Source: an uncultured Clostridia bacterium
GTDB lineage: Bacteria; Bacillota_I; Bacilli_A; RF39; UBA660
Reading direction: 5' to 3'
DNA: 35,092 nt
Assembly (NCBI GenBank): GCA_948433435.1
Contig: CAOJDX010000015.1
Coordinates: forward strand, 1-35,092
Part shown: positions 3,098-18,190 of the stretch, piece after piece
How positions within the stretch are numbered: the first letter of the stretch is position 1
How the letters are laid out: each line of letters starts with the position of its first letter
Made by a program: the position numbers and the translations under genes
Notes under the pieces: generated by a model
Told to the model about the DNA's origin: nothing
What the model saw: the letters and a program-made list of their open reading frames with translations, nothing else
Databases searched by the model: none

Positions 3098-3122
3098 CAG
3101 TATCCCCCCTCATATTGCGACT

Positions 3123-3408: not shown

Positions 3409-4806
3409 CTATTTTTTAACTTTTATTTTTTCTTCGCTATAGATTGCTTTTACTCTTTCTAAAAAATCATCGAAGATTCCATAGATTTTATAATCAGAAA
3501 AATCATAAGTAATTCTATCAAATACATCAAAGTAATAATTAAAAACATCTTCTGTTTCTAGTTCTACCCCAGAGTAATAAGTAATAGTATTTTCCATATC
3601 TGTTTCTTCATGAAATCCTGGATTTTCATTAAAATGAATATATTCTACATTTTTTAAATCTTTTAGTGCAGATAAGTTAATTTTAGGCACATACTCTAAA
3701 AGAACATGAGCATCATCTGGTAGGGAAAAATGTGTATTTTCTGTAAGTTCAATATTGTGCATATATAAATTAAAATCTGGACAGGATGATTGTATTGCTA
3801 TATTTCCTAATTCTAAAGAGTTTATACCAGGAGCAGCAGTTTTGGATATCATCATAGTGTGAATATTTTCACAAGTAGTTAAATCTAAGTTTAATAAATC
3901 CATTGACCATAAAACTTCAAGATCAACTACTTTGGCATTCAAACGTTCTAGGATATTTAAAACTTCCTTTGAGTTTTCATCTGATATGGATAATTTTATA
4001 AAGTTAATAGGAAGGTTTAAATATTTGGTAAGTGTTTCAATATTACTATTTTTACGAGTATTGATATTAATTTCTGTATCTGTTATATCACAATGTTTAA
4101 TAAGTTCAAGAGCTACTTCACTAGATTCACCATCGAAATTAATTCGATCGTATTTTTTGACTAGTGATTCAACATTAAAACCTTGCTTACATTGATAAAA
4201 TTGCAAATGTTTTATGTTCGATAAATCAACTTTTGAAAAGTCAAATTCAGAATACATATCATGTAAACTTAACTCTTCAATATTGTTTTTTTCAATTAAC
4301 GATTTCAATCTAAGATAAAATTCATCCGATACTTCTTTCCCATTATTATTACTTTTTTCTATAAGAGTTAAAGTATTATCAAAAACATCAACATAGTAAT
4401 TGCTTATACTAGATAAAATATTACAATAATCCTCAGAATTTTCTGATTCAAGTAAGGATTGGTAAACGTGATCATCAATATCAATATTAATATCTGAAGC
4501 ATCTAATTTATAGTTTATGCTTTCAACTAATGAAACTAAGTTAGAATAAGCGTGATCCAATACCTCTTTTTTTTCACTATAAACATGCGACTCTTCATAG
4601 TTAATATCTTGAGTTTGATCTTGACATACAGATATATATTTTTCTAAATCAAGACTTAAATCAGATATAGTACTGACTTGTTCTACAATTTTATTGTCAT
4701 TTTGTGAAAACTCACGATTAAGTTTACAGCCTGAAAGTATAAGAGCTAGTCCAAGTCCTAATGATGTTATGCCGATTTTTTTCTTTATTGATTCTTTTAA
4801 TTTCAT
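3409..4806 (-). CDS. Leucine-rich-repeat-like surface lipoprotein under a poly-G promoter
   Basis: 465 residues. The start has a GGGGG ribosome site. A basic N-terminus and hydrophobic stretch end in a lipobox LILSGC (Cys27), so the protein should be lipid-anchored outside the membrane. Residues about 30-180 are acidic and helical. From about 190 on, spaced Leu/Ile/Asn segments (NIKHLQFYQC, FIKLSIS, VVDLEVLW, NLSALKDLKNVEYIHFNEN) look like irregular leucine-rich repeats, a fold used for binding. I do not recognise a specific family. It is monocistronic, with a terminator behind it and a promoter whose spacer holds 12 G in front. Function is unknown; an exposed, switchable antigen or adhesin is an inference. 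Confidence 0.9.
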   Translation of the reverse strand: MKLKESIKKKIGITSLGLGLALILSGCKLNREFSQNDNKIVEQVSTISDLSLDLEKYISVCQDQTQDINYEESHVYSEKKEVLDHAYSNLVSLVESINYKLDASDINIDIDDHVYQSLLESENSEDYCNILSSISNYYVDVFDNTLTLIEKSNNNGKEVSDEFYLRLKSLIEKNNIEELSLHDMYSEFDFSKVDLSNIKHLQFYQCKQGFNVESLVKKYDRINFDGESSEVALELIKHCDITDTEININTRKNSNIETLTKYLNLPINFIKLSISDENSKEVLNILERLNAKVVDLEVLWSMDLLNLDLTTCENIHTMMISKTAAPGINSLELGNIAIQSSCPDFNLYMHNIELTENTHFSLPDDAHVLLEYVPKINLSALKDLKNVEYIHFNENPGFHEETDMENTITYYSGVELETEDVFNYYFDVFDRITYDFSDYKIYGIFDDFLERVKAIYSEEKIKVKK

Positions 4807-4841: not shown

Positions 4842-4875
4842 ATTATATCCCCCCCCCCCCATCTAATTTTGTCAA
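4842..4875 (-). promoter_or_regulatory. Probable phase-variable promoter with a 12-G run in the spacer
   Basis: The minus strand reads TTGACA (4875-4870), AAATTAGAT, twelve G (4860-4849), A, then TATAAT (4847-4842). The spacer is therefore 22 bp rather than the optimal 17, so as written the promoter should be weak or off; about seven G would give 17 bp. The 12-mer CTTGACAAAATT is shared with the promoter at 18166-18176. Confidence 0.75.
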
Positions 4876-9474: not shown

Positions 9475-9507
9475 TATATCTATAGCCCCCCTTTTTTGAA
9501 CGGAACT

Positions 9508-16758: not shown

Positions 16759-18126
16759 TTATTTATTAATTACAACAACAGCTCTAGTTCCTGTATATTT
16801 GCTCGAAGTCCTAGCAGCAAATAGACCTGACTCACCATATAAATGACCATAGCGTGATACAACAAAAACAGAAAGTGAATCAATCAGAGATGCAGACATT
16901 GTCCAATAATCATAATTAGCTTTAGAATCATTTACTGTTCCTCCATGTTCTGTTGAATCCAAAAAGTAATTAATCATCCATATTGGACATGAGTGGCCTA
17001 CTCTGCTACAACCAAGTGCCGTTGCCTCTTGCACTGTAATCATTCTAGCCCTTGCTGTTTTTTCTGATAATGTATAAATATTTGTTGTACACGATAAATT
17101 TTTATTACAACCTGTATAAGCATTATATTTGAATATTGTTGTGCCCATAATGTATGTTTGAGTATTTACATTTGTCCAAGAAGCTGTAGTAGATTGCAAT
17201 GCTGGCAATACTGTTGTTGGGCCATTTTTATTATCTGCAGCTGATTCATACCATGGGGTATTATAAAGAGTATTTTCTCTTTGTTGTAGGGTCATTGTTT
17301 TCCCATCATCATGTACTACATGAAAATATTTTTCTTCTTGATCATTTACAGCATATTTAATAATAGTGCCCGCAGGGCAGCTACCTGTACCTTCATCTTG
17401 AAAACAAGTTGATTTTTTACAAGTGACTTCTTCCCCTGTTACACAATAATTTTCAGCATTACTATCTTCATTGTAGGTATATATTTGTTTAATATTTTTA
17501 TTGTTAGGCATTGGCTCTAAAGTAATAGTTCCTTCCTTACCATAAGCGTTGACTCTTATGGTAAAACTTTTGGCTTCACTACTTAATTCATAACTTGAGT
17601 CTACCCACATTCTTAATCGGTAGTAATAGGTTACTTTCTCACTTACTGTTCCTACATCCATGACCATTTCTCCAGCTTTCGCTCCAAACTCATCGTCAGC
17701 GTCTAGTGGTGTATAGGGACTTGGTTCTAACACTTCATCATCATAGTTTGTACCATCTAAAGACTTTTGTAAATACAACCTAACATCTTCATTACCCATA
17801 GTTGATGAGTCATCCTTTACGGCTGTTACTTCATAGGATACTGGCATCTTTGGTCCTGTTTTAATATCAATCGTAAAATCAAAAACATAATTCTCATCGC
17901 TTAATGTTCTTCCAACTTCCTCTGTTATCGGAACTGCATTGTTAATGCTGATTTGATTATCCCCTTCTGTATAGATCATGGTAACAGCACTCGTTGTGAT
18001 CGCATTTTCTGTTACACCTGTTTTACTAAAAGTAAAGGCAGCATAACTTACTCCTACAATTACTAGTACTAGTAATATAACTAAACCTACTGTAATTATC
18101 TCTTTATTTTTCTTCTTTTCTTCCAT
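16759..18126 (-). CDS. Large membrane-anchored surface protein with lectin-like C-terminus, under a poly-G promoter
   Basis: 455 residues. One membrane segment (about 10-30) runs into SYAAFTFSKTGV, like the SipW-processed TasA/camelysin starts. A beta-rich domain extends to about residue 210. A Cys-rich middle section follows (NYCVTGEEVTCKKSTC, GTGSCPAGT). The C-terminal domain (about 300-455) has YWTMSASLIDS and ends GTRAVVVINK, resembling DUF6273/C-type-lectin-like folds. I infer a surface protein that binds a ligand; no enzyme site is visible. AAGGAG precedes the start. Its promoter holds an 11-G run between -35 and -10, so it can probably be switched. No reverse transcriptase or template repeat is in the window, so a diversity-generating retroelement is not supported. 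Confidence 0.87.
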   Translation of the reverse strand: MEEKKKNKEIITVGLVILLVLVIVGVSYAAFTFSKTGVTENAITTSAVTMIYTEGDNQISINNAVPITEEVGRTLSDENYVFDFTIDIKTGPKMPVSYEVTAVKDDSSTMGNEDVRLYLQKSLDGTNYDDEVLEPSPYTPLDADDEFGAKAGEMVMDVGTVSEKVTYYYRLRMWVDSSYELSSEAKSFTIRVNAYGKEGTITLEPMPNNKNIKQIYTYNEDSNAENYCVTGEEVTCKKSTCFQDEGTGSCPAGTIIKYAVNDQEEKYFHVVHDDGKTMTLQQRENTLYNTPWYESAADNKNGPTTVLPALQSTTASWTNVNTQTYIMGTTIFKYNAYTGCNKNLSCTTNIYTLSEKTARARMITVQEATALGCSRVGHSCPIWMINYFLDSTEHGGTVNDSKANYDYWTMSASLIDSLSVFVVSRYGHLYGESGLFAARTSSKYTGTRAVVVINK

Positions 18127-18159
18127 ATTTTTACTCCTTTATTTTATCTTTATACTTTG

Positions 18160-18190
18160 ATTCTACCCCCCCCCCCGGCAATTTTGTCAA
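18160..18190 (-). promoter_or_regulatory. Probable phase-variable promoter with an 11-G run in the spacer
   Basis: The minus strand reads TTGACA (18190-18185), AAATTGCC, eleven G (18176-18166), then TAGAAT (18165-18160). The spacer is 19 bp; nine G would give 17. The first 12 bases, CTTGACAAAATT, are identical to those of the promoter at 4842-4875. Confidence 0.75.

Follow-up and report, generated by a model that had tools for sequence, protein, structure and literature searches.

The question raised by this locus is whether the poly-G tract in the promoter of a surface-protein gene (the query site) belongs to a genome-wide set of switchable promoters, as was proposed in the preliminary description after a similar tract was seen elsewhere in the window, by which we mean the whole stretch of 35,092 nucleotides that was analysed. 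Read directly, the minus strand at 18190-18160 is TTGACA-AAATTGCC-G11-TAGAAT, followed by AAAGGAG and then by the ATG at 18126 of a 455 codon open reading frame, and the boxes, tract and spacer first described for this site are correct base for base. The 12-mer said to be identical at the second site, at 4842-4875, is indeed so, with CTTGACAAAATT common to both sites (Table 1). Poly-G promoters were said to occur nowhere else in the window, and there are no G runs of 7 or more in it besides these two promoter tracts. Two G6 runs, at 3104-3109 and 9486-9491, are on the minus strand just upstream of start codons with no TTGACA promoter, and may be ribosome-binding-site tracts.

Table 1. Features of the two poly-G promoter loci, in window coordinates
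Feature	Position	Strand	Remarks
-35 box TTGACA, query site	18185..18190	-	direct reading
AAATTGCC between -35 box and tract, query site	18184-18177	-	direct reading
G11 tract within the -35/-10 spacer, query site	18166..18176	-	whole spacer 19 bp
-10 box TAGAAT, query site	18160..18165	-	flush with tract
Ribosome-binding site AAAGGAG, query gene	18134..18140	-	direct reading
455-aa surface protein	16759..18126	-	N-terminus constant, including a membrane helix/export signal; C-terminal domain variable
-35 box TTGACA, second site	4870..4875	-	
AAATTAGAT between -35 box and tract, second site	4869-4861	-	
G12 tract, second site	4849..4860	-	whole spacer 22 bp
-10 box TATAAT, second site	4842..4847	-	single A between tract and box
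465-aa lipoprotein-like gene, second class	3409..4806	-	ATG at 4806; leader and promoter same in C3:28903

The genome that includes the window is a 90%-complete assembly of 1.47 Mb in 49 contigs, with 29% GC. The genome-wide set that had been predicted is there: a search of the whole genome with the strict pattern TTGACAAAATnnnnnGGG gave 12 exact matches, all of the form TTGACAAAAT-N5-Gn, and there is one variant site (C34:253) with TTGACA-AAAAAGCCGGGGA-G7-TAGAAT. The homopolymer lies between recognisable -35 and -10 boxes, TTGACA and TAGAAT or TATAAT flanking runs of G6 to G13. G runs of at least 8 occur at 11 loci in this genome, against an expectation of 0.5 (independent bases) to 2.3 (first-order Markov) for the whole genome, and all are promoter tracts of the set except C23:6785, which falls within codons 11-14 of the gene for another member of the surface family, a protein of 1357 aa. 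For runs of at least 10 the expectation is 0.01 to 0.08 in the whole 1.47 Mb, and nine are present. The shared 12-mer should not be read as a coincidence between unrelated genes; it is instead part of a repeated promoter cassette.

At two of the sites (C3:9136 and C14:13704) the gene is separated from its promoter by inserted DNA. The two inserted elements (L080:3256-5129, equivalent to C3:7255-9128, and L085:3215 onward, equivalent to C14:13714) abut the G tract exactly and have ends in common, like AGAATGAAGTATATACCCAAAA. The C3 element is 1.9 kb with inverted ends, and carries a DUF1016/YhcG nuclease gene and a NUDIX gene. In the C14 element the first gene is one for a C5 DNA methylase, and the element as a whole has, judged by eye, the look of a conjugative one; it includes a reverse transcriptase gene at L085:6866-7915 (RVT_1, E 6e-18), and the C-terminal region of the protein that follows may be the variable protein of a diversity-generating retroelement.

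The expectation that the targets would be secreted or anchored proteins was borne out, as all intact sites precede hydrophobic, signal-like or lipoprotein-like starts, or members of two gene classes, and none of these sites is upstream of a housekeeping gene. About nine copies of the main surface-protein family lie behind G-tract sites, each with its own homopolymer promoter, and there are two genes of the second class (C15:4860 and C3:28903), which have a common leader. The cargo genes stand singly among unrelated genes, mostly housekeeping. Main family genes follow the sites on C1, C5, C7, C15 (the query locus), C18, C20 and C30 and that at C3:81422; the C18 gene is frameshifted and its -10 box lacks one T. 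In addition C3:7253 is a copy with an internal deletion, and C34 has the start of a more distant family member at a contig end. The N-terminus of the main family is nearly constant for about 200 residues (MEEKKKNKEIITVGLV...GVSYAAFTFSKTG...), and the C-termini are of at least three unlike types.

A signal peptidase gene adjoins a further family member, C3:52410. It is over the cut-off for TIGR02228 (E 1e-33) and falls below that of the SipW model NF046067, and its position is consistent with a SipW-like export of the family. None of 22 family members is over the cut-off for any Pfam model, the Peptidase_M73 match in one of the 22 having E 0.08. The predicted structure of the N-terminal part (pLDDT 79; 47 for the full-length model) is a long helix and a beta sandwich, with weak fold matches of a generic beta-sandwich kind (TM below 0.4 for the query), and comparison with the SipW-dependent TasA/camelysin proteins gave only these weak generic matches and the sub-cut-off Peptidase_M73 match. 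Two paralogs, C19:7816 and C28:7577 (L169 and L170), have no G tract and share a different conserved upstream region (GTAAGTACATACGACAG...GATATAATA), so that promoters of at least two types occur in the family. The C20 copy (L087:2021-2899) is, judged by eye, just downstream of a prophage amidase/holin-like module and is perhaps a phage-borne switchable surface gene.

The tract lengths at the 13 sites, each an assembly consensus compared between paralogs with one genome per species, are G6, 7, 7, 8, 9, 10, 10, 10, 11, 12, 12, 12 and 13, with nearly identical flanks. For example C3:81422 (G10) and C20 (G12) have no differences in 44 downstream bases, and C1 (G9) and C5 (G12) have one flank difference in 44. 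Such differences in length between paralogs are divergence and not switching. A search for strain variation by way of viral contigs gave zero matches. A run of 6 to 13 G residues in a promoter is prone to slippage, so the level of each gene can probably be changed at random, upwards or downwards. The spacers with which sigma-70 promoters are usually most active are those of 16-18 bp. The spacers of the set range from 15 to 22 bp, and among main family copies with an intact -10 box that of C1 alone (18) is inside the 16-18 range. With most of the tracts the spacer comes to 19-22 bp, off the usual optimum, and therefore either most of the genes are OFF or the optimum differs in this organism.

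In the sister species G005, which belongs to the same genus, there are 36 G runs of at least 8, and almost every one is at the beginning of a surface-protein coding sequence (L391, L395, L398, L400 and others). Among 33 that were examined, 23 are in the signal peptide of a first surface family (MEKRKDILLVIPLILTIVLMGG..VTYAKYSKS), one of them cut by a contig end, and 7 are near the start of a second family (MKKINNCSNGGGYFRR...GISYAAFTYSG) that resembles the family in the window. The first family has 22 readable copies, and every one is out of frame (19 at G9 and 3 at G10). One G fewer or more reopens 20 of them over some 390-500 codons or beyond, and the remaining two for the whole of the stretch that could be traced. 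In the second family, full copies are open with G9 and closed with G10. For the C23 coding tract in the window's own genome, among G9 to G13, only G11 leaves the frame open. The keeping of long frames behind an out-of-frame tract is the strongest sign in the data of switching by such tracts. At the trmK-adjacent site, which is the position of the query gene, G005 has a first-family member with G9, and there is no G tract in the five other sisters with readable flanks.

Of the seven sister species, five have no match to the strict promoter pattern, and even within the genus, therefore, the system is not universal; sister G006 has promoter-type tracts. In the taxonomic family as a whole TTGACA-N9-G7 is present in 71 of 386 genomes (about a fifth) and 40 of 150 genera, and a reversed control pattern in none of the 386. 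A -10-like hexamer is flush with the end of the tract at 55 of 65 sites, which come from as many as 18 genomes, against about 3 at the average other offset. The N-terminus is strongly hydrophobic for 50 of 55 downstream ORFs in the taxonomic family against 58 of 174 background ORFs, the background being from the window's genome with the family itself included and the 55 from other genomes. The products downstream include SYAAFT-like and prepilin-like proteins (KKGFTLIELLAVI), with one GNAT-like and one WXG100-like protein as exceptions (by eye). Contigs of the related genomes often end at or shortly after a poly-G promoter (L315-L322 in G359, L334-L337 in G243, L313-L314 in G160), for which repeats in common, tracts of mixed length or failed reads could each be the cause.

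The sample for the order-level search comprised genomes of the same taxonomic family alone, and is uninformative on other orders. We also scanned 84,980 species genomes for TTGACA-N6..9-G8-N0..3-TAnAAT, and the matches listed include Clostridia, Saccharibacteria, Treponema, Streptobacillus, Helicobacter, Moraxella, Streptococcus and others. The N-terminus is hydrophobic for 42 of 62 downstream ORFs among the matches listed, against 28% of neighbouring ORFs (p 5e-9). The poly-G promoter design is not confined to the taxonomic family, and going by the promoter sequences the layout is not peculiar to the window genome, recurring across the family and beyond.

We think it very probable that these are a genome-wide set of phase-variable sigma-70-type promoters, by which the surface repertoire would be switched through slipped-strand mispairing. 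The G tract would be the variable part of the -35/-10 spacer, and mispairing at replication would add or remove G residues, shifting the spacer nearer to or farther from the optimum of about 17 bp. Transcription of each gene would then rise or fall independently and reversibly, and cells would display differing members of the repertoire of exported proteins, with a presumed gain against host immunity, phages or changing niches. The case for switching is a strong one from the anatomy of the promoters and from comparison, and slippage in this strain and the effect of spacer length on transcription are what we infer. A more elaborate proposal, which we consider unlikely and put forward only tentatively, has the G tract as both switch and recombination joint: modules of two kinds, -35 plus G tract and -10 plus leader plus gene, would be swapped at the tract and mobile elements would insert exactly there, the lineage's switch would move between promoter and signal-peptide codons, and with nearly all copies OFF few surface proteins would be displayed at a time.

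It could be argued that the tract is a fixed regulatory element, either a site bound by a regulator of surface genes or a G-rich spacer by which the promoter is weakened, with a length that is constant in life. The strong conservation between copies, including the bases from the -35 box to the tract, is as one would expect for such an element, but the tract itself goes from G6 to G13 although its flanks hardly change. Moreover the flanks are wholly different between genera (TTGACATA-G in G359, TTGACAAATATGC-G in G019 and TTGACAATAAGACAT-G in G376), yet the G tract recurs, and in the sister species the tract is in codons, where a promoter role is impossible and it is the frame that matters. We consider a fixed element improbable.

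We give still less credence to switching mainly by recombination between copies, with promoter and gene cassettes swapped at the shared G tract, in place of slippage. The -35 plus G module is common to two gene classes that have different -10/leader modules, the inserted elements join exactly at the tract, and contigs in several genomes end at or just after it, all of which could be accommodated in this way. However single-base differences in length with equal flanks are what slippage produces, the out-of-frame copies of G005 differ by one G only, and contig ends are also predicted by long near-identical repeats. That the tracts are artefacts of sequencing or assembly, as might be thought from G359 contigs that end within a few hundred bases past G14-G20 tracts with noisy sequence after them, is barely credible, as in this genome the tracts are mostly inside long contigs, on both strands, with a perfect -35 box and a -10 box and before two gene classes, and the same promoter design is present in G250, which has contigs of up to 752 kb.

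We considered loss of MutS as a cause of slippage, as mutS was not found in this genome and is present in all seven sisters, and rejected it: the neighbouring gene xseA was also not found, and the assembly therefore probably lacks this region.

Slippage phase variation is known mostly from pathogens, which may partly reflect biased genome databases (2025 review, PMC11868660). An uncultured Bacilli family with what appear to be multi-locus poly-G switches provides a testable set outside the classical pathogens, and in the taxon-unbiased scan exported proteins of many phyla are preceded by this promoter layout. The sister-species pair has related genes with the putative switch at the transcriptional level in one and the translational level in the other. 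We found no paper on poly-G switches in this lineage in a search of open-licence papers only, which is weak evidence. The mechanism itself is already known, from porA and vlp; what appears to be undescribed is the lineage, the scale that the system reaches in this uncultured Bacilli family, and the way in which a single genus alternates between promoter tracts and codon tracts.

With regard to the closest known systems, porA of Neisseria meningitidis has poly-G between the -35 and -10 boxes, and 11G, 10G and 9G change its expression (PMC3639595). The two are alike in having a poly-G spacer in the promoter of a major surface protein, but porA is a single gene whereas here one genome, of a Bacilli lineage, has about a dozen such genes, in two classes. 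The vlp genes of Mycoplasma hyorhinis are, in the account that PMC10502178 gives in citing Citti and Wise 1995, turned ON or OFF by insertion or deletion in promoter-region homopolymers. As there described they are also a surface-gene family with a homopolymer in each promoter region, but the tracts are poly-A and the products lipoproteins, whereas our tracts are poly-G and the export signal and membrane helix of the main family are of a different type. In the gut commensal Bifidobacterium breve a G tract in the coding sequence of pilus genes is switched by replication slippage (PMC9187656). It resembles the coding tracts of G005 and C23, but is in pilin clusters, in the coding sequence only and with no promoter set. 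The vlhA genes of Mycoplasma gallisepticum are again a multigene family for surface proteins, and have a variable repeat at their promoters (PMC6258824), but there the GAA repeats are upstream of the promoter core, whereas here the homopolymer is inside the spacer.
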